From Actinomyces naeslundii (GTDB taxonomy: Bacteria; Actinomycetota; Actinomycetes; Actinomycetales; Actinomycetaceae), in assembly GCF_001956585.1 (NCBI RefSeq), contig NZ_MSRR01000027.1, positions 1 to 64,000 of the forward strand: DNA of 64,000 nucleotides, read 5' to 3'. This document shows positions 5,699 to 51,086 of this stretch, in pieces (positions within the stretch are counted from its first letter, which is position 1; each line of letters begins with the position of its first letter). The notes beneath the pieces were generated by a model. It saw only the letters and a program-made list of their open reading frames with translations, was not told the origin of the DNA and ran no database searches. A program made the position numbers and the translations under genes.

Positions 5699-5857
5699 GC
5701 CGGGCTTCGGAAGCCTGTCGGACTCGAGACTGCCCGGGGTCTGGAGGACGCACAGTGGACCTCACGGACTGCGCCCGCGACATCCGTCGTCGAGGGTGAG
5801 GGTGCGTACGCGACGAACCACGTGCTTGTCCGCGCCTGAGCTGCGGGGCCGGGTATC

Positions 5858-7168
5858 GTGCCTGGCGTGCGCGCGCTGACCCGACCTCGGTTCCTTCTGG
5901 CCGCCGCCTTGGCGGGCGTGGCCGCGGGTCTCGTCGGGATCGCGATGGCGCTGCTCCTGGAGCTCTTCGAGGCGCTGTTCTACGGCGTCGTCCACGGCGG
6001 GCTTCTGGAGCGCCTGGCCGCTGCCCCGCCCTGGCGGCGCGCACTCGCCCCGACCGTGGGCGGTCTCGTCGCCGGTGGCGTGTGGTGGTGGCTGCGCGCA
6101 ACCGGTGGGGTGGCCGACGTGGAGACCGCGGTGGCAGACCGCTCGGGTAGGAAGGCGAACCGGATGGGACTGGCACGCCCCTTCCTCGACGCCGTCACCC
6201 AGGTCCTCACGGTCGGTTCGGGCAACTCGGTGGGCCGCGAGGGCGCCCCGCGTCTGGCCGCCGGGGCGGTCGCGGCCGGACTCGCCGCCCGCCTGGGGAT
6301 CGGCAGGCCCGAGAGCGCGATCCTCATCGCCTCCGCCGCCGGGGCCGGCCTGGCGGCCATGTACAACGCGCCGCTGGGAGGGGCGGCCTACGCCGTCGAG
6401 CTCGTCATGGTCGCCGGGATGCGGCGGCACGGGGCCCTCGTAGCGGTCCCGGTGTGCGTCATCGCCACGCTCGTCTCCTGGCTGCACTCCCACGGACGAC
6501 CCGCCTTCGAGGTCGCCTCGCAAGGACTGTCGTCGGGGACCGTCCTCGGACTGGTTCTGCTCGTGCCCGTCGCCGCTGCGCTGGGAGTGGGCGCCAGGCA
6601 ACTGTGGTCGTGGATGCTGGTACGCCGGGTGCGCACCGTACGGCGGCTACCAGTGGCGATCGGGGTGGCGGGACTGGCAACCGGGTTGGTGAGTCTGTGG
6701 GTTCCGGCCGTCGTCGGCAATGGCCGCGACGCCATGGAGGTGGCCCTGGGCGCCCACGTTCCGGAAGACTCGAGCGGCGCCCCGGGTGCGGTCCTGGTCA
6801 TGCTGCTGGGCATCGTGGCCCTCAAGCCGGTCCTCACCGGGCTCACGCTCGGGGCCGGTGCCACCGGGGGACGCCTGGCCCCCTCCCTGGCCGTGGGATC
6901 GAGCGCGGGAGCCGCGCTGGCGATCGCGCTTCAGGCCGGCGGGGTGGAGACCAGCATCTCGGTGCTGGCGATGGCGGGTGCGGGCGCGGTGCTCGCCACG
7001 ACCCAGAAGGCCCCCGTCTTCGGGATCGTCTTCACCTGGGAACTGGCCCGGGCCGGAGCCTGGACGCTGACAGCACTGATCGCCGTCGTCCTGACGGTCA
7101 TGCTGCTGACCTCCCCCACCTGGCGGCAATCCGCAGTATCCCGGCTGCGGGGCTCGGGGAAGCGATAG
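5858..7168 (+). CDS. CLC-family chloride channel/transporter
   Basis: A 436-residue integral membrane protein of the CLC family, which moves chloride with or without proton exchange. Family signatures are visible: GSGNSVGREGAP near residues 120-131, with the gating glutamate at 128 in the GREGxP motif, and GGRLAPSLAVG in the C-terminal half in place of the usual GxFxP region. There is no cytoplasmic CBS pair after the last helix, as in short bacterial CLCs. The GTG start at 5858 is the longest choice; a second GTG lies three codons downstream. The gene sits between a broken and an intact copy of a CPBP protease gene. Confidence 0.88.
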   Translation: MPGVRALTRPRFLLAAALAGVAAGLVGIAMALLLELFEALFYGVVHGGLLERLAAAPPWRRALAPTVGGLVAGGVWWWLRATGGVADVETAVADRSGRKANRMGLARPFLDAVTQVLTVGSGNSVGREGAPRLAAGAVAAGLAARLGIGRPESAILIASAAGAGLAAMYNAPLGGAAYAVELVMVAGMRRHGALVAVPVCVIATLVSWLHSHGRPAFEVASQGLSSGTVLGLVLLVPVAAALGVGARQLWSWMLVRRVRTVRRLPVAIGVAGLATGLVSLWVPAVVGNGRDAMEVALGAHVPEDSSGAPGAVLVMLLGIVALKPVLTGLTLGAGATGGRLAPSLAVGSSAGAALAIALQAGGVETSISVLAMAGAGAVLATTQKAPVFGIVFTWELARAGAWTLTALIAVVLTVMLLTSPTWRQSAVSRLRGSGKR

Positions 7169-7217
7169 CCGAAGCCTCCTGCCACGTGTCAGGGTCATTA
7201 AATCTTCCGATCGACCG

Positions 7218-7223
7218 TATACT
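7218..7223 (+). promoter_or_regulatory. candidate -10 box (TATACT) for the CPBP gene
   Basis: TATACT lies 44 bases upstream of the ATG at 7268, in an AT-richer stretch between the CLC gene and the CPBP gene. The -35 region is weak (CATTAA about 17 bases upstream). Confidence 0.35.
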
Positions 7224-7267
7224 CCTGCGCGGATCGCGACAGACAGACACTTCTCACCGGAATCACT

Positions 7268-8134
7268 ATGGATCGTCACAGGGGCGTCGCCCCGCCCCGC
7301 CACGCGTTACGGCCCTCCACGGCCGACGCCTACACCTTCGAGACCGGGCAGCCCGCTGTTTCCGAGGGCGTCACCCTTGCCGCCGTCGCCCTGCTGGTCG
7401 GCGCCCCGGCGCTGGGAATCGCCCTGGCACTCCTTCGGGGTCCGTGGATCCTCATGCTCGCCATCCTTCACCTCGGCGGGCTCGCTCTCTGGTTCGGGCT
7501 GGCCCACCGCGGCTGGCGCGACCTGCTGGCCGGTGGCGGCATCCACAGCAGGACGCTGCTCTTCACGACCGGAGCCCTGGCCGGGATCGCCTTCGGCGGA
7601 CTGCACGCCTGGATGGGGCCGACAGGTACCGGCCCCCTGTGGAAGCCGGAGATCACCGCATCCACGGCGCTTCACGCTCTGGTCTTCGCCATCTTTGTCG
7701 GCATCGCGTATAACGCGATCCCTGAGGAGATCACGCTGAGACGCACCCTGTTCGCACCGGTGCGAGAGCGCCTCGGCGCCACAGCGGCCGTGCTGTTGAC
7801 GACGGCATCCTTCACCGCCCTGCACCTGCCGACCTGGCTGACCTCGGAGACCAGCCTCAAGGGCTACGCCTGGCAGATTCTCCACAAGGTGCTCTTCGGA
7901 CTGCTCGCCGGCTGGTCGGTGGTGCGGCTGCGGTCGGTGTTCTTCGCGCTGGGCCTGCACGTCAGCGGAAACGCGCTGGGCCTGTTCATCGGCCAGCTTC
8001 AGAGCGAGAACCTGCCCGACTTCGAGATCTCGTGGCTCAACGCGGCGATCCTGCTCACCGGCGCAGCCGTCGCCGCCGGCCTCATCCATCTCCTGGGCCG
8101 ACGGCGGAAGCAGCCCTCTGCGCTCAGTCCTTGA
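7268..8134 (+). CDS. CPBP-family intramembrane glutamic endopeptidase
   Basis: A 288-residue multi-helix membrane protein of the CPBP (CAAX/Abi) protease family. The family motifs are present in order: IPEEITLRR (EExxxR), FTALHLPTW (FxxxH) and HVSGNALG near the last helices. Members process prenylated proteins in eukaryotes; in bacteria many protect against self-made bacteriocins or have unknown substrates. The ATG start at 7268 follows a short untranslated leader. The 3' end overlaps the convergent nitroreductase gene by 11 bp. A degraded paralogue lies upstream at 5232-5685. Confidence 0.85.
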   Translation: MDRHRGVAPPRHALRPSTADAYTFETGQPAVSEGVTLAAVALLVGAPALGIALALLRGPWILMLAILHLGGLALWFGLAHRGWRDLLAGGGIHSRTLLFTTGALAGIAFGGLHAWMGPTGTGPLWKPEITASTALHALVFAIFVGIAYNAIPEEITLRRTLFAPVRERLGATAAVLLTTASFTALHLPTWLTSETSLKGYAWQILHKVLFGLLAGWSVVRLRSVFFALGLHVSGNALGLFIGQLQSENLPDFEISWLNAAILLTGAAVAAGLIHLLGRRRKQPSALSP

Positions 8135-8771
8135 TCGTGAGGATCTCGTCGACGTCGACGCGGTCGGGGGCGAAGGCCGCCAGCGCCGAGTCCGCGGGGT
8201 GGCCCAGCGCGATCCCGACCGCCACGATCTCATCGGCTCCGATCCCCATGGCCTCGCGCACCTCGTCCGGGTACATGACCAGGGCGTAGGCGTTGATAGC
8301 GCCAAGGCCCTTGTCGGCAGCCGCTAGGACGAGCATGGCGGAGAAGGCCCCGAGGTCGTGGAAGGACCACGGAGTGGACTCGACCGGGATCGTCACGTAC
8401 AGGACCGCCTGAGCGTTGAACAACCGTCCCTGCGATGCCTGGAACTCCTGGACGCCATCGCCCAGCTGGGCACCGATCTGCTCGCCGAGCGCGGCCATGT
8501 TCTCCTGGGTGGTCGGAGACCACTCGGTACGAGGCTTCACCGGAAGGTCGGAGTCTCCCTTCCTGCCGGCAGCGACGTCCGCGGCATGGCGCTTCTTGAT
8601 CCCGGCCAACGTAGCCCCAGTGGCCGCATAGACCCGCCAGGGCTGGGAATTCACCCACGACGGCGCCTGCTGGGCGGTGCGGACGACGTCGACCAGGTCC
8701 TCCCGGGAGACGGGCTGATCGGTGAAGTCTCGCACCGAGTGACGATTGGCGACGACCTGGCTGAACTCCAT
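8124..8771 (-). CDS. nitroreductase-family FMN-dependent oxidoreductase
   Basis: A 215-residue flavoprotein of the nitroreductase family. The N-terminus shows the typical RHSVRDFTDQPV FMN-binding motif, followed by QQAPSWVNSQPWR; the C-terminal part has the glycine-rich GIALGHP segment. Such enzymes reduce nitro compounds, quinones or flavins with NAD(P)H; the natural substrate cannot be read from sequence. Its end overlaps the convergent CPBP gene. A second, longer nitroreductase lies at 14402-15121. Confidence 0.88.
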   Translation of the reverse strand: MEFSQVVANRHSVRDFTDQPVSREDLVDVVRTAQQAPSWVNSQPWRVYAATGATLAGIKKRHAADVAAGRKGDSDLPVKPRTEWSPTTQENMAALGEQIGAQLGDGVQEFQASQGRLFNAQAVLYVTIPVESTPWSFHDLGAFSAMLVLAAADKGLGAINAYALVMYPDEVREAMGIGADEIVAVGIALGHPADSALAAFAPDRVDVDEILTIKD

Positions 8772-8884
8772 GGTGCTCTCCTACTTCCGATGTCCACGGG
8801 TTTGTCCACCGAGACCAACGATCGGCCGGCCGGCACTATTCCAGTGACGAGGCCCTCGGGCTGGCGCGGCGAGCACCCAACCGC

Positions 8885-10762
8885 TCAGGCCCGACGGCGC
8901 AGCAGCACCGAGTCCCAGCCGGCCAGGACCGCGGGCAGCCCCGCGTGCCCGGAGCCGGGCTGGACGTCCGGGTCGCCGGCGCGCAGGACCTGCTCGGCCT
9001 CGGTCCACTGCCCCGCCTGCAGCCCCTCGGCCGCGAGCGCGGCCAGCAGACCGCCTTCACCGGTCAGGGTCAGGTCATCGCGGGCGCACTGGGCGATGAG
9101 CAGGAGCTGCTCGACGCGGTTCTCACCCGTCTCATCCGGCTCCGGGGACCGCCACTGACGCAGGATGACCCAGGCGGTGGGGTGGTCGGCCGCCAGGAGC
9201 CGGAAGGTGCCCAGGGCGAGGGCGTCGTCGTCGTGGCGCAGTGCGATGAGGGAGCGGTAGTGCTCGAAGACGCTGCCGGGCACTCCCGCCTGGGCTGCGG
9301 CGTGGACGGTGCCGTGGTCGGGAGCCAGGGCGATCCAGGGCTCGCCGGTGGTGAACCCGGCCTTCTCGCTACCGTCCCAGTGAACGGGGGTGCGGGCGTT
9401 GTCCCGGGAGATGGGGGCCAGACCGGTCAGGACGGCGGCCGGGTCGTCGCCGGCGCGCACGCGCTCGTGGAAGTGGTTGATGGACTCCAGGTCCCGGTAG
9501 TCCTTGATGGAGCGGAAGACCGTGTTGGCCATGCCGAGCTCCTCACCCTGGTAGACGTAGGGCGTGCCGCGGTGGGTGTGGAGGATCGTGGCGAGGGTCT
9601 TGGCCGAGCGGACGCGCCAGGCCGGGTCGTCGTCGCCGAAGCGGGAGACGGCGCGGGGCTGGTCGTGGTTGTCCCAGTAGGCGGAGTTCCAGCCCTTCTC
9701 CGCCGTGACGACGCCGGAGGAGTCCGTGACGGGGGCGAGGGCCGCCTGCCAGTCGGCGAGGTTCTTCTTGAGGACGACCAGGTTGAGGGGCTGCGGGTCG
9801 AACTTGCCTCCGGGCCCGTCGGTGAGACTGACGTGCTCGAACTGGAAGACCATGTCGAGCTCGGCGCGGGCGGGGTCGGTGTAGAGGGCGGCCTCGCTTC
9901 GCGTGGCTCCGGGCATCTCGCCAACGGTGATGACGTGGCCGGGCCGGGGTGCGAGGACCTCTTGGTTCATCTCGTGGAGGAACTCGTGGATGCGCGGCCC
10001 GTTGGCCACCGCGGCGAAGGCGTTGCCGTAGAGGTCGCCCTCGCCCTGGGGCGCGTCGGTGAGCGGGTAGGTCTTGGAGATGAAGTTGATGACGTCCATG
10101 CGGAAGCCGTCAACACCGCGCTCCAGCCACCAGGTCATCATCTCGTAAACGGCGCGGCGCATCTCGGGGTTCTCCCAGTTGAGGTCGGGCTGCTTGGGTG
10201 AGAAGAGGTGCAGGTAGAACTCCTGGGTGTCCTCGTCCCAGGCCCAGGCCGACCCGGAGAAGGCCGATCCCCAGTTGGTGGGCTCGGTGCCCGGCTGCCC
10301 GGGAGCCAGCCCGTCGACCTGCCGGGCGGGTTTCCAGATGTACCAGTCACGCTTGGGGTCCTGCGTCGAGGAGCGGCTGGCGGTGAACCAGGGGTGCTCG
10401 TCGCTGGTGTGGTTGACGACGAGGTCCATGACCAGACGCATGCCGCGGGCGTGGAGCCCCTCGATGAGGGCATCGAGGTCCTCCAGGGAGCCGAAGAGGG
10501 GGTCGATGTCCTGGTAGTCGGAGATGTCGTAGCCGTTGTCGTCCTGCGGGGAGCGGTAGACGGGGCTGAGCCACACGACGTCGACCCCGAGCTCGTCGAG
10601 GTGGTCCAGGCGGTTGGTCAGACCCGGGATGTCACCAATTCCGTCGCCGTCGGAGTCGGCGAAGGAGCGGGGGTAGACCTGGTAGACGACGGCGCGGCGC
10701 CACCAGTCCGGTTCGTCACCGACGTGGTGGGGAGAGACGACCAGAGGTGCGGGACGGGTCAT
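8885..10762 (-). CDS. GH13 alpha-glucosidase (oligo-1,6-glucosidase type)
   Basis: A 625-residue glycoside hydrolase of family GH13, likely cytoplasmic (no signal peptide). Catalytic residues are visible: nucleophile Asp223 in GFRMDV, acid/base Glu282 in TVGEMPG and the transition-state Asp367 in WDNHDQPR. The N-terminus WWRRAVVYQVYPRSFADSDG is typical of exo-acting alpha-glucosidases on maltose, isomaltose or short dextrins. The ATG at 10762 is preceded by GGAAGGAAG, so the longer reading back to 11080 is rejected. It is divergent from a GH31 gene, suggesting a shared sugar-responsive control region. Confidence 0.9.
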   Translation of the reverse strand: MTRPAPLVVSPHHVGDEPDWWRRAVVYQVYPRSFADSDGDGIGDIPGLTNRLDHLDELGVDVVWLSPVYRSPQDDNGYDISDYQDIDPLFGSLEDLDALIEGLHARGMRLVMDLVVNHTSDEHPWFTASRSSTQDPKRDWYIWKPARQVDGLAPGQPGTEPTNWGSAFSGSAWAWDEDTQEFYLHLFSPKQPDLNWENPEMRRAVYEMMTWWLERGVDGFRMDVINFISKTYPLTDAPQGEGDLYGNAFAAVANGPRIHEFLHEMNQEVLAPRPGHVITVGEMPGATRSEAALYTDPARAELDMVFQFEHVSLTDGPGGKFDPQPLNLVVLKKNLADWQAALAPVTDSSGVVTAEKGWNSAYWDNHDQPRAVSRFGDDDPAWRVRSAKTLATILHTHRGTPYVYQGEELGMANTVFRSIKDYRDLESINHFHERVRAGDDPAAVLTGLAPISRDNARTPVHWDGSEKAGFTTGEPWIALAPDHGTVHAAAQAGVPGSVFEHYRSLIALRHDDDALALGTFRLLAADHPTAWVILRQWRSPEPDETGENRVEQLLLIAQCARDDLTLTGEGGLLAALAAEGLQAGQWTEAEQVLRAGDPDVQPGSGHAGLPAVLAGWDSVLLRRRA

Positions 10763-11021: not shown

Positions 11022-13583
11022 GTGACGACCCCTGTGAAAGGCCGATCGTTGGTTTCTCCTCTCTCCAATGCCCCTGACACGCTGCGTCCGGCAGCAGCCC
11101 CTGCCGAGGCGGTCGTCGTCGGGACGACGCCGGCCGAGTCCCGTTACCGGTTCACGGTGCTGACCTCCCGACTCATCCGCATGGAGTTCTCTCCCTCGGG
11201 CGTGTTCACCGACGCCGCTACCCAGCTGGTCGTGAACCGGGATCTCGGCGAGGCGCCGTTGTTCCGGGTGGTGCGGGGTGAGGACCGATTGGAGATCGTC
11301 ACCGAGCACCTGCACCTGACCCATATCCCCTCGCTGGGCTTCTCCCCATCGGGCCTCAGCGTCAGGCTGCGCTCGACGGCGCTCCACGCCCACGGCGGCA
11401 CCTGGCACCACGGCGACGTGTGGGACCCCGACGAGACCTTCCCGACGAACCTGGGCGGCACCACCCGCACCCTCGATGAGGCCGACGGCGCCGTCGCCCT
11501 CAGCCCGGGACTGCTGAGCCTGAACGGCATCACCGCCCTGGACGACTCTGCCTCGCTGCTGCTCACCCAGGACGAGTGGGTCCGGCCCCGTGAGTCCGGC
11601 AACCGCCTGGCCGACGGGGCGCAGGACCTCTACGTCTTCGGCTACGGCCAGGACTACCGGGGGGCGCTGCGCGACTTCTTCCGCCTCACCGGCCCAAGCC
11701 CTCTCATTCCGCGGGCGCTGCTGGGCAACTGGTGGAGCCGCTACTACCCCTACAGCGGCCAGGAGTACCTGGCGCTCATGGACCGCTTCACCGCCGAGGA
11801 GCTGCCCTTCTCCGTGGCCGTCATCGACATGGACTGGCACCTCACCGACATCGACCCGGCGATCGGCACGGGCTGGACCGGCTACACCTGGAACCGGGAT
11901 CTCTTCCCAGACCCTGCGGCCTTCCTGGCCGGCCTGCATGAGCGGGGCATGCTCACCACGCTCAACGTCCACCCCGCCCAGGGGGTGCGGCGCCACGAGG
12001 AGGCCTATGAGGAGGTCTGCGCCGACCTGGGCCTGGATGCCGGCAGCGGGGAGGATGTGCCCTTCAACGTCGCCGACCGGGTCTTCATGGGCTCCTACCT
12101 CTCGCGCCTCCACCACCGGCTGGAGGACCAGGGCGTGGACTTCTGGTGGCTGGACTGGCAGCAGGGCGGCTCCACGACGGTTCCCGGCCTGGATCCGTTG
12201 TGGATGCTCAACCACGTCCACTACCTCGACTCGGGCCGCGAGCGCCCGACGGAGGCGGGCGGCGTGGAGCGGCGTCGGCCGGTGACCTTCTCCCGCTTCG
12301 CCGATGCCTCGAGCCACCGCACCCCGGTGGGCTTCTCCGGGGACACGATCATCAGCTGGGACTCCCTGCGCTTCCAGCCGCGGTTCACGGCCACGGCCGC
12401 CAATATCGGCTACTTCTGGTGGTCCAACGACATCGGCGGGCACATGCTGGGCTACAGCGATGACGCGATGGCGGCGCGATGGTTCCAGCTGGGCTGCTTC
12501 TCCCCCATCAACCGCCTGCACTCGTCGAACTCGGCCTTCACCTCCAAGGAGCCATGGCGCTACTCTCGCGACGCGCGCGCCACGATGGAGGCGCACCTGA
12601 GGCTGCGCCACCGGCTGGTGCCCTACCTGTACACGTGGGCGCGGCGCTCGGTGAGCGAGGGCGTGGGACCGGTGCGTCCGCTCTACCACGACCACCCGCG
12701 GACGCTGGCCGCCTACGAGCACCGGAACACCTTCTGCTTCGGAGACCTGCTGGTGGTGCCCTTCACCTCCCCACTGGACGAGACCACCGGCCTGGGCCGG
12801 GAGCTGACCTGGCTGCCCGACGGCGTCTGGTACGACCTGCCCACGGGGCGCCGTTATGAGGCCGCCGCCGGCGGGCACGGGCGCATGCTGAGTCTGTCGC
12901 GCCCACTGGACCGCATCGGTGTCCTGGCCAGGGCCGGCTCGGTCATCCCGCTGGCCGGGAACCTGATGGAGGCAGCCGGGGACAATCCGCGCGAGCTGGA
13001 GGTCGTCGTCGTGCCCGGAGACTCGGGGTCCTTCACCCTGGAGGAGGACGATGGCTCGGCCGAGCCGGGGCCGGACCGGGTCGCCCGCACGCACATGGCA
13101 CTGACCTGGCCGGACACCGAGGACGAGGACGGCGGGGACGCGGTGCTGCGTATCCGCCTGGAGGGGGCCGCCGACGTCGTCCCGGACTCACGGAAGGTGA
13201 CGGTACGGCTTCTGTCCTGTCGGGTGGCGGGCGCCTGGCTGGGGGTGGGCGAGCAGGCGTGCCGACTGGCCACCGAGGAGGTCGATGGTGACGGATTCAC
13301 TCTGGGGGCGGGCACGCTCGTGCACGTCGGTGAGCTGTCCCGCCAGGAGCTGGCCGACGGCGTCGGACTGGTGCTGCGCGGCACGCGGCAGGAGCCGATG
13401 GACTGGCGCGACGAGGTCCACACGATCCTGGATACCGCGCGCGTGGAGTACATGGCCAAGGACCTGGCCTGGGCCGCTGTGCAGAGGGGCCTGAGCGGGA
13501 CCGCCCTCCTGGGTGAGATGGAGGCCCTGGGACTGCCTGAGACGCTGCGAGCCGCCGTGGCCGAGGTACTCCCCCACTCCTGA
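11022..13583 (+). CDS. GH31 alpha-glucosidase/alpha-xylosidase-type glycoside hydrolase
   Basis: An 853-residue protein of glycoside hydrolase family 31. The catalytic (beta/alpha)8 domain carries nucleophile Asp378 in WWLDWQQG and acid/base Asp441 in FSGDTIISW. The N-terminal beta domain and C-terminal beta-sandwich regions (to about residue 680) are present, with an extra C-terminal region of about 170 residues. There is no signal peptide, so action is cytoplasmic. The GTG at 11022 is the longest start; a second GTG is four codons in. Substrate preference (maltose, isomaltose or isoprimeverose) cannot be settled. The partner GH13 gene is divergent. Confidence 0.88.
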   Translation: MTTPVKGRSLVSPLSNAPDTLRPAAAPAEAVVVGTTPAESRYRFTVLTSRLIRMEFSPSGVFTDAATQLVVNRDLGEAPLFRVVRGEDRLEIVTEHLHLTHIPSLGFSPSGLSVRLRSTALHAHGGTWHHGDVWDPDETFPTNLGGTTRTLDEADGAVALSPGLLSLNGITALDDSASLLLTQDEWVRPRESGNRLADGAQDLYVFGYGQDYRGALRDFFRLTGPSPLIPRALLGNWWSRYYPYSGQEYLALMDRFTAEELPFSVAVIDMDWHLTDIDPAIGTGWTGYTWNRDLFPDPAAFLAGLHERGMLTTLNVHPAQGVRRHEEAYEEVCADLGLDAGSGEDVPFNVADRVFMGSYLSRLHHRLEDQGVDFWWLDWQQGGSTTVPGLDPLWMLNHVHYLDSGRERPTEAGGVERRRPVTFSRFADASSHRTPVGFSGDTIISWDSLRFQPRFTATAANIGYFWWSNDIGGHMLGYSDDAMAARWFQLGCFSPINRLHSSNSAFTSKEPWRYSRDARATMEAHLRLRHRLVPYLYTWARRSVSEGVGPVRPLYHDHPRTLAAYEHRNTFCFGDLLVVPFTSPLDETTGLGRELTWLPDGVWYDLPTGRRYEAAAGGHGRMLSLSRPLDRIGVLARAGSVIPLAGNLMEAAGDNPRELEVVVVPGDSGSFTLEEDDGSAEPGPDRVARTHMALTWPDTEDEDGGDAVLRIRLEGAADVVPDSRKVTVRLLSCRVAGAWLGVGEQACRLATEEVDGDGFTLGAGTLVHVGELSRQELADGVGLVLRGTRQEPMDWRDEVHTILDTARVEYMAKDLAWAAVQRGLSGTALLGEMEALGLPETLRAAVAEVLPHS

Positions 13584-42722: not shown

Positions 42723-44065
42723 CGGCGCTCCCCCTCAGCTCCTTGGTGGTCCCCGGGGGTGGCTTCGGGGTCCTTGGGACGCACGTGGAGGCGGGTGACG
42801 CGGCGCCCGTCCATGGCGTCGACGGTCAGGGAGGCGTGAGTCAGCTCGACGACGTCGCCGACGGCGGGGATGCGGCCGAGCTCGGTCATGACCAGGCCGC
42901 CGAGGGTCTCGTAGGGGCCGTCGTCGGGCACCTGGATGGCGGCGCGGGTGGCGAGCTCGTCGGGGCGCATCCACCCCGGGACGACCCAGTGGCCCGAGGG
43001 GTCGAGGTGGGCGCCGGCGCGGCGGCGGTCGTGCTCGTCGGCGACGTCCCCGACGACCTCTTCGACGGCGTCCTCAAGGGTGACGACGCCGGCGGTGCCG
43101 CCGTACTCGTCGACGACGAGCGCCATCTGAGAGCCCTGGGCACGCAGCTCGACGAGCAGGTCGGCCAGTGGCATGGTCTCGGGGACTCGGGGCGCGGGGG
43201 TCATGAGGGAGGTGGAGGCGACGGGGACGTCGGCGCGCCGCTCGTAGGGGACGCCGATGGCGCGGCGCAGGTGGACGATGCCCATGACGTCGTCGACGTC
43301 GCGGCCGATGACGGGGAAGCGGGAGTGGCCGGTGGCGCGGGCCAGGTGCACGACGTCCTCGGCGGAGTCGTCGGCCTCGAGGGTGTGGAGGCGGCCGCGG
43401 TCGGTCATGACGTCGACAGCGGTGAGCGCTCCCAGGCCGATGGAGCGGGTGAGCAGGGTGGCGGTGGAGGCGTCGAGGGTGCCCTCCTCGGCGCTGTGGC
43501 GCACGAGGGAGGCGAGCTCGCCGGCGCTGCGAGTGCCGCTGAGCTCCTCGGCCGGCTCGATGCCCATGGCGTGCAGGACGGCGTTGGCCGCGTTGTTGAG
43601 CACGAGGATGAGGGGCTTGAGCAGGGTGGCGAAGCCCATGAGGAAGGGAGCCACGAGGCCGGCGGCGCGCATGGGGTCGGACAGGGTGGCGTTCTTGGGG
43701 ATGAGCTCGCCCATGACCATGGAGAAGGCGTTGACGACGATGAGCGCGATGACGACCGCGGCGCCGGTGGCCACGGAGACAGCCATCCAGTGGCTCATGA
43801 GGTCGATGAGAAGGTTGGCCAGGGCGGCCTGCATGGTGTAGCCCAGGAGCACCGTGGTCAGGGTGATGCCGACCTGGGCGCCGGACAGGAGTGTGGACAG
43901 GCGCCCCAGGGCCCGCTGGACGACGGTGGCGCGCTTGTCCCCGGTGGCGGCGCGGGTCTCGACGGTGGAGGGGTCGAGGGCGACCAGGGAGAACTCACCG
44001 GCCACGAACAGGGCGGTGCCCACCGTGAGGACCACGCCGACGGCGATCATGAGCCAGTCGGTCAT
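42719..44065 (-). CDS. CNNM/CorC-type membrane protein (full-length)
   Basis: A 448-residue protein with a DUF21 membrane domain (to about residue 190, with GELIPKNATLS), a CBS pair containing VDEYGGTAGVVTLEDAVEE, and a C-terminal CorC_HlyC domain. It belongs to the magnesium/cobalt efflux group formerly annotated as hemolysins. The ATG at 44065 is chosen because GGGGGAG lies at proper spacing; the GTG at 44074 sits too close to it. Confidence 0.9.
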   Translation of the reverse strand: MTDWLMIAVGVVLTVGTALFVAGEFSLVALDPSTVETRAATGDKRATVVQRALGRLSTLLSGAQVGITLTTVLLGYTMQAALANLLIDLMSHWMAVSVATGAAVVIALIVVNAFSMVMGELIPKNATLSDPMRAAGLVAPFLMGFATLLKPLILVLNNAANAVLHAMGIEPAEELSGTRSAGELASLVRHSAEEGTLDASTATLLTRSIGLGALTAVDVMTDRGRLHTLEADDSAEDVVHLARATGHSRFPVIGRDVDDVMGIVHLRRAIGVPYERRADVPVASTSLMTPAPRVPETMPLADLLVELRAQGSQMALVVDEYGGTAGVVTLEDAVEEVVGDVADEHDRRRAGAHLDPSGHWVVPGWMRPDELATRAAIQVPDDGPYETLGGLVMTELGRIPAVGDVVELTHASLTVDAMDGRRVTRLHVRPKDPEATPGDHQGAEGERR

Positions 44066-44335
44066 GCGGGCCACTCCCCCATGTGGAGTACGACGTGGGC
44101 GCCGGAGGCGGACGAGTCGGGGTGGGGGTGGTCAGAGGCGGGCGAGGAGGCGCGGTGCGTGCGGGTGCGGCGCCTGCGGGCCCGGCGGAAAGCCGATCGC
44201 ATAGTGACCGAACGGTACCACCGCGGCGGAATCGAAGCAGAGGTAGCCATCAGGTGTCGCACCGCCATCACCAGAGGAACTGATCTCTCACGTCTCTCAC
44301 GACTGGGAGAACCTGCACCGCAGACCAAGCGAGAA

Positions 44336-44977
44336 TGGAGGTTGCGATGCCACCACGGAGGGCAGAAGACAGTCCGTTCAACCGATCCAGACCAGTCCCC
44401 ATGGTGGCTCCTTGCGCCAGCCCGCGGCACAGTCGTAGGCGCGACCATTCCTTACCTCAGCGCACTCGGTCTCAAGTGGGCCGCAGCATACGTGGCACTC
44501 AATGCCACCGGAGGACTAACCGTCCCGACACCTCAGTTCCGCGAGCGGATCTCAGGAGGCTTCGCGCTCGAGGACGGCTCGAGGACGTCAAGGGTAACCT
44601 GAGGATGCTGCTGCGAAAGAAGACGGAAATAGGAAGTTCGATCTTTATCCAGGCCCAATTTATCGTGACTCCAGAGAATCGTTCCAAGGTCGAGCTCTTC
44701 GAGCCCCACTGGCTTGCAGAGCCAGGAGTCGACCAGGCCGCAATCCGCCACGAACGGGCACATGCGGGACGGACGGTCCGGCATGACCAGTATCAGAATC
44801 GGGAAGAGTTGCGGCAACCTTGCAGGTATCTGTGGGAGAGCGTTGTGATTATGCAGGACGGCACCGCGATGCCCTGCTGCAAAGATTTCGACGCGAAGGC
44901 ACCGCCGGGTAACGCTTTCGAGCAGGACATGGGTGAGATATGGGATGGGGATACAGCATATGAGGGTGTGGGAATAA
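44336..44977 (+). pseudogene. decayed radical-SAM/SPASM protein gene
   Basis: Frame 2 from about 44336 reads to GGFALED at 44575, where an 11-bp tandem duplication shifts the reading; frame 1 then continues as VKGNLRMLLRKK. The later part has the SPASM-like segment PCRYLWESVVIMQDG followed by AMPCCKDFD, with cysteine ligands of an auxiliary Fe-S cluster. The N-terminal CxxxCxxC cluster motif is missing, so the gene is also truncated at its 5' end. Near 44950 a second one- or two-base shift would restore an ending QHMRVWE whose TAA overlaps the next ATG as TAATG. In the present sequence frame 1 runs on into the HprK-like gene. The 44066-44335 gap upstream holds no recognisable gene. Confidence 0.7.
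44566..44587 (+). repeat. 11-bp tandem duplication causing a frameshift
   Basis: GCTCGAGGACG is present twice in a row (44566-44576 and 44577-44587). Removing one copy joins GGFALED directly to VKGNLRMLL in one frame, restoring a continuous radical-SAM protein. Confidence 0.85.
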
Positions 44978-46590
44978 TGGTCAGCACATTGTCGGCGGAG
45001 ATTGTGGCGCGCGTGCGGCAGGAAGTAAATACCAACGAGTACTCCAGGTGCGAAATATTCGCTTCCCCCTTTGCAAATGTTTCGGTGCAGACGCATCCTG
45101 CCCTCACACCCCTTCTGCGCTCACACCTCTATTACCCCGACACACCATCGGCAGCAGACATCTGGTCGGTAAGTGCTGTCGAGAGCGACTATCTCTGGGA
45201 TTTCACAGTCGAACAGTTAAATCCTGCGTGGACGCCTGTCTTGGATTATGGCACAGACGGTCATGTCGTCGATATCGATCAACAAGCCCGCCTCATCATG
45301 ATCCCGAGCACGAGAACCGTAATCGTCCGGGATTGTGCGGAGAAGAAGGTCTACATAGTTGGCAGAGATGTTCGAGGTCTTTTCGTAGAGCTGTATCGGG
45401 TTGTCCGGGGCGTTCACACAGCGTCGGCCATCAACAGCGGGGCGATGGCGTTCCACTCCTCGTCGGTTGTTCGTCAGGGCCGTGGGGTCTGCTTCGTAGG
45501 TGATAAGGGCGCAGGGAAGTCGACGGCGTTGCTCGCTGCTGCCACATCTCATCTCGACGGGCTGAGTATCCTTACGAACGACAGGGCGTTTCTCCATTTT
45601 GATCGTGACCTGGAGATCCTGGCGTGGCCTAGTGCTGTCAATGTGGACGCGGGAAGCCTATTGGCTCTGGGCGGTGACCGCGTTCTCAAGCCGGAGTTTC
45701 ATTACCGGTATGGCGCGATGGCCTACCTACTTCTCGATCTTCCACTGATCGAGAAGTTGTCGACGGGCGATGAAGCTTCGGCGCCCGCCAAAGTGATGTT
45801 ACTGCCGGAAGAGATGCGCCGTGCACTGGGTACCTCGTTTTCCACTGAGGGCCGCGTCGTCGCGATTATCGAGAGCAAGCTCGCACTGGACGAGCCGCAC
45901 AGCCGCTTCGAACTCGTCTTGGACGCCGATGAACGAGCGAACCTCGTCCGCCGAAATGCCTGCACCGACTGGACCAATCATCCCGACTGGCTCGGTCTCA
46001 TCACCACGTCTCCCGGGGAAGAGAGCGTCATAGGTCGGCTAGAGGAGGTGGCGGACGACGTCGCGATAGCAAGACTTCGAGTTGGGCGTGATGGAAAAGA
46101 TGTGACAAGGGGTCTCATCGCCGCTTTCACTTCCTCCAACTCCCCTATCGAGTTGGGTACGGAGATCGCCGCAGGCCCGCTTCCCACTTACCACTTCGGG
46201 GTATATGCGCGCATTGTGCGGGACGGCCGGCTGTTGTGCGTGAAAAAGACACGCGGCCCCTACACTGGTCTGCTCGACCTCCCCGGCGGGCGACCCGAAT
46301 TCGCTGAGAACTGGGAAGATGCCCTCCGACGCGAGTTGGCGGAGGAGGTGGGTGCCGAGTCCGTGTCCATCGCTAATTGCGCTCGGTTCTCGCTACATGT
46401 CGATTTTAACACCGCTGGCGAGAATATCGACTTCCACCACCATGGAGCTGTCGCAGATGTGCACCTATGGGGCGCGCTTTCTGAACACGGAATGTCGTCG
46501 TCGGACACGAATGGATGGGAGTGGTTCGATCTCGGATCAGGTGACCGATTGTGCCTCAGCCCCCTCGCGCGGTCGGTTCTAGACGGATGA
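44977..46590 (+). CDS. HPr-kinase-like P-loop protein fused to a Nudix hydrolase
   Basis: A 537-residue two-domain protein starting at the ATG at 44977. Residues 1-150 resemble the N-terminal part of HprK-related proteins in peptide-maturation clusters. The kinase-like domain has P-loop GDKGAGKS at 175-182 and LTNDRAFLHF downstream. From about residue 405 a Nudix domain follows; its box (438-460) fits GX5EX7REUXEEXGU exactly (GRPEFAE ... RELAEEVGA). HprK-like proteins accompany radical-SAM or lasso-peptide systems, and Nudix enzymes cleave nucleoside-diphosphate-linked compounds. The fusion suggests two steps on one phosphorylated or nucleotide-linked substrate. Codon use is less GC-rich than in flanking genes, suggesting transfer. 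The frame is also open upstream through the decayed radical-SAM gene. Confidence 0.75.
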   Translation: MVSTLSAEIVARVRQEVNTNEYSRCEIFASPFANVSVQTHPALTPLLRSHLYYPDTPSAADIWSVSAVESDYLWDFTVEQLNPAWTPVLDYGTDGHVVDIDQQARLIMIPSTRTVIVRDCAEKKVYIVGRDVRGLFVELYRVVRGVHTASAINSGAMAFHSSSVVRQGRGVCFVGDKGAGKSTALLAAATSHLDGLSILTNDRAFLHFDRDLEILAWPSAVNVDAGSLLALGGDRVLKPEFHYRYGAMAYLLLDLPLIEKLSTGDEASAPAKVMLLPEEMRRALGTSFSTEGRVVAIIESKLALDEPHSRFELVLDADERANLVRRNACTDWTNHPDWLGLITTSPGEESVIGRLEEVADDVAIARLRVGRDGKDVTRGLIAAFTSSNSPIELGTEIAAGPLPTYHFGVYARIVRDGRLLCVKKTRGPYTGLLDLPGGRPEFAENWEDALRRELAEEVGAESVSIANCARFSLHVDFNTAGENIDFHHHGAVADVHLWGALSEHGMSSSDTNGWEWFDLGSGDRLCLSPLARSVLDG

Positions 46591-46763
46591 GGCCGTGTGT
46601 CCGTCCTCCGATAGAACCGCGACTCGCGGACGACTCGGAACTCCAGGAGCTCCGTCCTGCGACGTCGACAGCCCACCACGCCATCCACCTCGGCAACTAC
46701 GCCCAACTTTTCTTCGCCAAGTCGGACGACATGAAAGCGATCATCCTGACTGAAAGGCGATAA
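46587..46763 (+). CDS. small ORF of 58 residues coupled to the HprK-Nudix gene, unknown function
   Basis: The ATG at 46587 overlaps the preceding stop (ATGA), which implies translational coupling. The product begins MRPCVRPPIEPRLADD and ends KSDDMKAIILTERR. I do not recognise it. It could be a separate small protein, a precursor-like peptide, or the first part of a gene now split from the fragment at 46754-47035. Confidence 0.4.
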   Translation: MRPCVRPPIEPRLADDSELQELRPATSTAHHAIHLGNYAQLFFAKSDDMKAIILTERR

Positions 46764-47035
46764 CCCTCGCCAATGATGATGAGCGGTCTTTACTAGCCGA
46801 ATGTCACTTCAACCTGTTTGCCCATTCACCCGAGCACCACAAGGAGTCCGGAAGGGCGCTCGAGAAACTTCTGGCAGACGGTGTGATGGCAGGTGGCTGG
46901 TCATTCGAGATGAACCTGGAGCGGCTCCGGAGCGAGGAGGACCCTCGGACGGATCTGCTCGAGGCGGTGGCTCAGGCACTTGAAGACGGCGACACATCCC
47001 GGCTCGACGCCTTCGAGGAGTGGCGCGACATGTAG
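46754..47035 (+). pseudogene. C-terminal gene fragment, unknown family
   Basis: Frame 2 is open for 93 codons from a stop at 46751-46753 to the TAG at 47033-47035. It has no start codon in its first half; the first in-frame ATG comes after about 40 codons. The product is acidic (ANDDERSLLAECHFNLF, ending DAFEEWRDM). Just upstream, MKAIILT and KAITLAN are encoded by a roughly 20-bp imperfect repeat in different frames, so a small duplication may have split one gene. Confidence 0.4.
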
Positions 47036-47237
47036 GTCACCGTCGTCGGGCCGTTCGACCCAGGGCCGCGAGCGCGTCACAGCCGGGACACGCATGTGTC
47101 CTTGGTCCCGCATTTGCTCGCCTGAGACGCCTTTCACCTCCTAGGATGTCCTACGGACACCGCCGTTCCTCCCCGGGTCCCGCCGAGGTTCCCAGCGCCG
47201 GGACGGCAGACTGACGAGTTCACCGAGGAGACCCGAC

Positions 47238-51086
<3,849 letters not shown>

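Follow-up and report, generated by a model that had tools for sequence, protein, structure and literature searches.

An HprK-like kinase domain and a Nudix hydrolase domain are joined in one protein of Actinomyces naeslundii, encoded by an uninterrupted open frame of 537 aa at 44977-46590 on the plus strand (positions are those of the window, the whole stretch of 64,000 nucleotides that was analyzed). Together with the stump of a radical-SAM gene directly upstream, this fusion gene forms an alien, low-GC insert of about 2.1 kb in a wrecked TPR gene. The domains themselves are known, their pairing is new, and the fusions form a small clade whose partner has been lost. We tentatively favor the reading that the two-domain enzyme is the surviving half of an acquired coupled pair, in which the kinase would phosphorylate the product of the partner and the Nudix domain would trim P-O-P bonds.

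Architecture and constraint of the fusion protein

Residues 408-519 (46198-46533, plus strand) matched PF00293 in a profile search with 42.5 bits, above the cut-off of 21.1, and contain a strict match to the Nudix box Gx5Ex7REUxEExGU from residue 438 (46288), at whose end the two known homologues, G026 and G012, carry Ala for Gly. The P-loop GDKGAGKS lies within the first 400 residues, at residues 175-182 (45499-45522), and alignment to the HprK loop places the other kinase motifs at His160 (45454) and Asn201-Asp202 (45577-45582), so that all of them fall within 45454-45582 on the plus strand. A first-pass annotation of the window had reported an HprK-like P-loop domain and a perfect Nudix box in one protein, and both the pairing, with exact coordinates, and the box held up. 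Single-sequence AlphaFold2 modeling of the fusion gave a mean pLDDT of 31.4. The PADLOC candidate model PDC-S07 also matched the protein (E 6.4e-8), in residues 410-472 only, and a defense role was rejected because this match is confined to the Nudix stretch.

Searched directly, the kinase half resembles HprK weakly. The models TIGR04355 (19.4 bits, E 4.6e-4) and TIGR04352 (15.8 bits), both for HprK-related kinases A/B, did not reach their cut-off of 200, nor did TIGR04249, for ScmC of the SynChlorMet cassette (14.7 bits), reach its cut-off of 125; the matches concern the P-loop region, and the models describe no Nudix domain, unlike the fusion. PF07475 gave no match to the fusion at E up to 1 and none in the whole genome at 0.01, a profile of the three fusions matched no HprK structure, and a motif resembling [EQ][VIL]RGxG, which we take to be the HprK/P signature of HPr kinase/phosphorylase (PF07475, TIGR00679), is absent from all three. 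The link becomes firm through a two-step chain, since the three-fusion profile aligns with one built from ten HprK-like proteins of Streptomyces (hhalign 98.5%, E 3.4e-15, 230 columns, 30% identity), which in turn matches the HPr kinase structures 1jb1/2qmh (E 1.6e-5). On these comparisons the label HprK-like, already given by the first-pass annotation, is correct, and the fusion is a non-member of the HPr kinase/phosphorylase family that is nevertheless related to it via the Streptomyces proteins. In the loop alignment, ADDRV of HprK corresponds to ANDRV in Streptomyces and TNDRA in the window, Asn for the first Asp being common to the fusion and its Streptomyces relatives. The catalytic set, His-Lys-Asp-Asp in lasso kinases, reads His, Lys, Asn, Asp in the window's genome (G000) and G026, and Cys, Lys, Gly, Asn in G012.

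Despite much divergence, the three species all retain an uninterrupted frame (537, 542, and 538 aa). Between G000 and G026, dN/dS is 0.12 for the kinase core (residues 121-300) and 0.12 for the Nudix domain, 0.10 for residues 1-120 and 0.21 for residues 301-400, and against G012 it is 0.33-0.36 for the core and 0.08-0.13 for the Nudix domain, which is low in all three pairs (0.08-0.13); these ratios are rough because dS is 0.7-1.5 for core and Nudix domain. The motif His, the P-loop Lys-Ser, and the Asp are kept in both G000 and G026, and both domains look constrained between these two species. Changes unique to G012 fall on 47 of 180 core positions vs. 7 of 135 Nudix positions (Fisher p 3.7e-7) and those unique to G026 on 4 of 180 vs. 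8 of 135 (p 0.13), while in residues 1-120 G012 has no such surplus (14 changes unique to G012 vs. 13 to G026). In G012 the motif His has become Cys, the P-loop Ser has become Ala and Asn-Asp has become Gly-Asn, and the Nudix box is kept apart from the Gly-to-Ala end that it shares with G026. The G012 kinase core is probably dead and, as the Nudix domain is kept beside it, the kinase would seem dispensable at least in that species.

A lost radical-SAM partner and the insertion site

The fusion gene is preceded by the 3' remnant of a SPASM radical-SAM gene (44564-44976, plus strand), in which the SPASM match lies at about 44821-44961 (PF13186 with 34.7 bits, above the cut-off of 21.5, at residues 163-209 of a 751-codon frame) and the motif C-x12-G-x4-C is present. 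The radical-SAM core is missing, CxxxCxxC being absent from the six frames of 44075-44976. The first-pass annotation had placed the fusion beside a radical-SAM gene, which stands as far as the adjoining SPASM remnant goes and fails for a working gene, as only a C-terminal stump is left; its wording that the two were originally coupled had already implied this. The best named model for the stump is the KxxxW cyclic-peptide maturase (20.4 bits, E 1.7e-4, cut-off 500), and its structure matches are 5v1q (E 7e-4), presumably the streptide cyclase SuiB, followed weakly by BtrN (E 0.013), an enzyme that acts on a sugar-like substrate. Searches with the stump returned the window itself and a decayed copy in G012 within the genus, and the window only in 296 class genomes. 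The G012 copy has 34% identity and two stops, and in G026 only the tail of the radical-SAM gene is left, LCxGCSEWRGEP being common to this tail and the G012 copy.

An ancestral coupled pair of radical-SAM and fusion genes, as the first-pass annotation had proposed, is well supported by the sequence, because a remnant lies upstream of the fusion in all three loci and because the stop codon of the former radical-SAM gene runs into the start codon of the fusion as TAATG in two of them, G000 (junction 44960-44979, plus strand, from alignment and locus comparison) and G026, with no others among 124 loci. The evidence is against a working pair at the three loci today. No full-length homologue (0 of 3) has an intact radical-SAM gene beside it, and when the small frames in the 3-kb flanks of the fusions (71, 106, and 74) were compared, the two cross-matches were both old radical-SAM pieces, with no common small-peptide gene beyond these. 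The working cassette with a conserved small peptide that had been envisaged was therefore not recovered; the homologues now sit with neither a radical-SAM nor a small-peptide gene, yet the remnants show that the former link existed.

GC content is 0.53-0.61 across the insert vs. 0.67-0.75 in its flanks. The 5' stump of the interrupted TPR gene, which carries a P-loop-like motif by eye, is frameshifted (44335-44563, plus strand) and has a two-base gap relative to both G001 and G020, while the 3' stump lies with the next intergenic stretch at 46660-47060 (plus strand; stump end approximate). G001 and G020 hold at this site a TPR-repeat gene with a P-loop-like motif (by eye), intact in L123/L124, and share the 5' flank of the window up to 44458 and 44563, respectively, and the 3' flank from 46788 and from about 46660. 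The flanking genes, named by eye, are a CNNM/hemolysin-type gene and an oxoglutarate decarboxylase gene. In two further genomes the matching flanks are separated by only 28 bases (G030, window 44225-47062 without counterpart) or 49 bases (G021, 44226-47082 without counterpart). Because stump and fusion interrupt the TPR gene, the 751-codon frame from 44335 is a chimera, and a single three-domain protein was rejected, its first 76 codons being a frameshifted piece of another gene and its SPASM part a stump. The three fusion loci have no DNA in common beyond the fusion gene and some 20 bases; the neighbors in G026 and G012 differ, and the part of the window's site that G012 shares lies elsewhere in its genome.

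Some further observations concern these sites. The stretch 44225-47083 (L121-L124) is variable in the genus, being nearly empty in G030 and G021, occupied by the TPR gene in G001 and G020 and by the fusion insert in G000, and the G020 TPR gene contains 17 copies of a 105-base repeat. At the G026 fusion locus (L029), transposase-like genes were seen by eye downstream (5844-8935) and a tRNA-Ala gene (11356-11429) lies about 300 bases upstream.

Distribution and relatives of the two domains

Full-length fusions occur in 3 of 49 genus genomes, that of the window, G026 (about 68-69% identity) and G012 (59%), and the end-to-end alignment of these homologues from two other species indicates that the fusion did not arise by chance. 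Some match at E 0.001 or better is found in 26 of the 49 genomes, and those other than fusions and standalone Nudix genes are short, weak Nudix matches. No further fusion was found in 213 family, 396 order, 394 class (kinase part), or 396 phylum genomes, sets that overlap and of which the last three are samples, in agreement with the earlier remark that a Nudix partner in the same chain is unusual. The six order matches besides the window's are confined to the Nudix part and the stretch immediately upstream, and in the five of these loci examined by eye the neighbors are unrelated. The fusion has no match in phages, and on plasmids only its Nudix part is matched (nine records). Two scans of genome contigs and two of viral contigs for an intact cassette confirmed no relative, weak negatives since each scan was based on two to six peptide patterns. 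Among the literature matches listed, taken at the level of titles and abstract openings, the fusion is not described in those on Nudix with HPr kinase, lasso peptides or radical SAM, or in those on HPr kinase with radical SAM/PqqD and on HprK-like/HprK-related/SynChlorMet.

Standalone Nudix genes with 52-57% identity over the whole fusion Nudix domain are present in four other genus genomes (G004, G027, G028, G041); unlike the fusion they encode single-domain proteins, and their neighbors are unrelated by eye, with no HprK or radical-SAM gene. The fusion Nudix domains, these standalone genes and four order genes form one clade vs. Firmicutes (100/100), within which the branching order is mostly not settled; G048 was left out of both trees as too short, G015 was removed as a long branch and G010 was not included. 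A CRISPR-type-like array, recognized by eye from repeats in the translation, lies just before the G004 standalone gene (L031, 8400-9179). A Streptococcus salivarius megaplasmid (L044) carries, some 5 kb from lacticin-481-type lantibiotic genes, a standalone Nudix gene that is also related (40% over 92 residues).

The closest detectable relatives of the kinase half are in Streptomyces. When 394 class genomes were searched with the kinase part, matches at E 1e-4 or better came from 19 genomes in addition to that of the window, the best of them being partial matches of HprK-like genes. A tblastn search with one Streptomyces relative returned 30 plasmid records; 20 were listed, three of these, near-duplicates by their listed entries, were set aside, and the neighborhoods of 17 were examined. 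A recurring order of phosphotransferase, LDH-like and HprK-like genes (L079-L083, L092-L108), for which no name was found, is seen in Streptomyces. Counted from a PLSDB gene table that is incomplete, and to be read without a background rate, 15 of the 17 plasmids have an annotated LDH-like or NAD(P)-binding gene immediately ahead of the HprK-like gene, and 7 have a phosphotransferase ahead of it (in 9 others an unnamed gene similar in length takes that place). Annotated radical-SAM genes lie within 7 kb on 4 of the plasmids (L095, L096, L102, L104, of which L102 and L104 look alike), a NUDIX gene is annotated on 2 (at 2.2 kb in L096 and 6.5 kb in L092) and an FxLD methyltransferase on 1 (L097; also in the chromosomal L079). 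Around class-level matches, some of them doubtful, a Nudix box occurs in 4 of 14 loci (L081, L084, L085, L090). The cargo beside the module varies (radical SAM, FxLD methyltransferase, dTMP kinase, sugar genes), one neighborhood holding dTMP kinase, MazG-like and NUDIX genes and another UDP-galactopyranose mutase, aminotransferase and NTP transferase genes. Unlike in the fusion, the Nudix of the module is a separate gene where present, and the fusion has no LDH-like or phosphotransferase gene adjacent to it; three radical-SAM proteins taken from L095 and L096 do not resemble the SPASM stump. A more distant HprK-like relative (318 aa, hhalign 93%) from a genome of the same family (G137, L040, 1138-2094, minus strand) lies beside genes that look lasso-type by eye, namely a transglutaminase-type protease, an asparagine-synthase type and an ABC transporter.

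What the fusion protein may do

According to PMC9266682, three kinases of lasso peptides, PadeK, ThcoK, and SyanK, act on a serine in the precursor peptide, which ThcoK and SyanK phosphorylate more than once, and the His-Lys-Asp-Asp set is essential; PMC13381572 has LppK acting likewise on linear polyphosphorylated peptides and HprK kinases traveling with NTP transferases. HprK-like tailoring kinases can place several phosphates on one serine (PMC9266682, PMC13381572). The fusion resembles these enzymes in its HprK-like P-loop domain, motif His, P-loop Lys, and second Asp and, like paeninodin-type lasso kinases and LppK, was formerly tied to a peptide-type modifying enzyme; it differs in being joined to a Nudix domain, in having had a SPASM radical-SAM partner rather than lasso enzymes, in the Asn at the first Asp of the set, and in that no peptide gene was found. 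The substrates in which Nudix enzymes can cleave P-O-P bonds include compounds other than nucleotides. We infer the substrate, the order of steps, and the action of both activities on one molecule as follows. A horizontally acquired, translationally coupled pair would have comprised a SPASM radical-SAM enzyme and then the fusion, whose kinase domain would phosphorylate, with ATP as donor, a hydroxyl of the radical-SAM product (most probably on a serine), sometimes repeatedly, and whose Nudix domain would cut P-O-P bonds in the phosphate chain, or an attached nucleotide, and so set the final state. With the radical-SAM gene lost, the fusion protein is now alone, and Nudix activity is what it has kept most firmly.

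We favor kinase action followed by trimming because the fusion is conserved end to end in three species, because core and Nudix domain share a low dN/dS between G000 and G026 with their motifs kept, because of the recurrent radical-SAM remnant and TAATG overlap, because some Streptomyces relatives have radical-SAM (4 of 17) or NUDIX (2 of 17) genes nearby and because HprK-like tailoring kinases are reported to phosphorylate one serine several times. The same reading is weakened by the lack of an intact partner or peptide gene at the three loci, the Asn in the HprK loop, the probable death of the G012 core beside a kept Nudix domain, the dissimilarity of the stump to the radical-SAM proteins of two Streptomyces neighborhoods, and the roughness of the ratios. 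Its most specific form is distinctly improbable; here one chain would both write and trim, the HprK-like kinase polyphosphorylating a serine in a peptide modified by the radical-SAM enzyme, and the Nudix domain of that same chain cutting P-O-P bonds to a defined end.

The decay in G012 and the standalone genes make it nearly as likely, if itself doubtful, that the selected task is that of a Nudix pyrophosphohydrolase on free nucleotides or small molecules, the HprK-like half being vestigial or an aid to folding or regulation. The concentration of G012 changes in the core, the loss there of motif His, P-loop Ser, and Asn-Asp with the Nudix box kept, and the existence of close standalone Nudix genes among unrelated neighbors would all fit, whereas the comparison of G000 with G026 shows equal constraint on kinase core and Nudix domain, with P-loop and motif residues intact. 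It is unlikely that the fusion belongs to a small-molecule pathway, with the kinase phosphorylating a nucleotide-like or sugar-like metabolite and the Nudix domain cleaning up or activating a nucleotide conjugate. The phosphotransferase, LDH-like, HprK-like module, the nucleotide and sugar genes near it, and BtrN among the weak matches of the stump point that way, but the stump matches the peptide-cyclase model (far below its cut-off) and 5v1q better, neither an LDH-like nor a phosphotransferase gene was seen next to any of the three fusions, and the FxLD methyltransferase genes adjoining some module copies point to peptides. Quite unlikely, too, is a decaying, functionless insert, an alien fragment in a broken gene and soon to be lost: a partner destroyed in all three species, the wrecked TPR gene and low GC, the broken G012 core, and the absence of any promoter-like match on the plus strand of 44050-47240 are in keeping with it, while the three intact frames after much divergence and the low Nudix dN/dS in every pair argue against it.

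A separate study is merited by the unnamed module of Streptomyces, some copies of which have radical-SAM genes nearby. The G012 copy, with its broken kinase core and conserved Nudix domain, amounts to a natural domain-separation experiment. Should kinase action and trimming indeed be combined in one chain, the fusion would be a ready-made device for controlling a phosphate chain, in a protein that can be tested directly.
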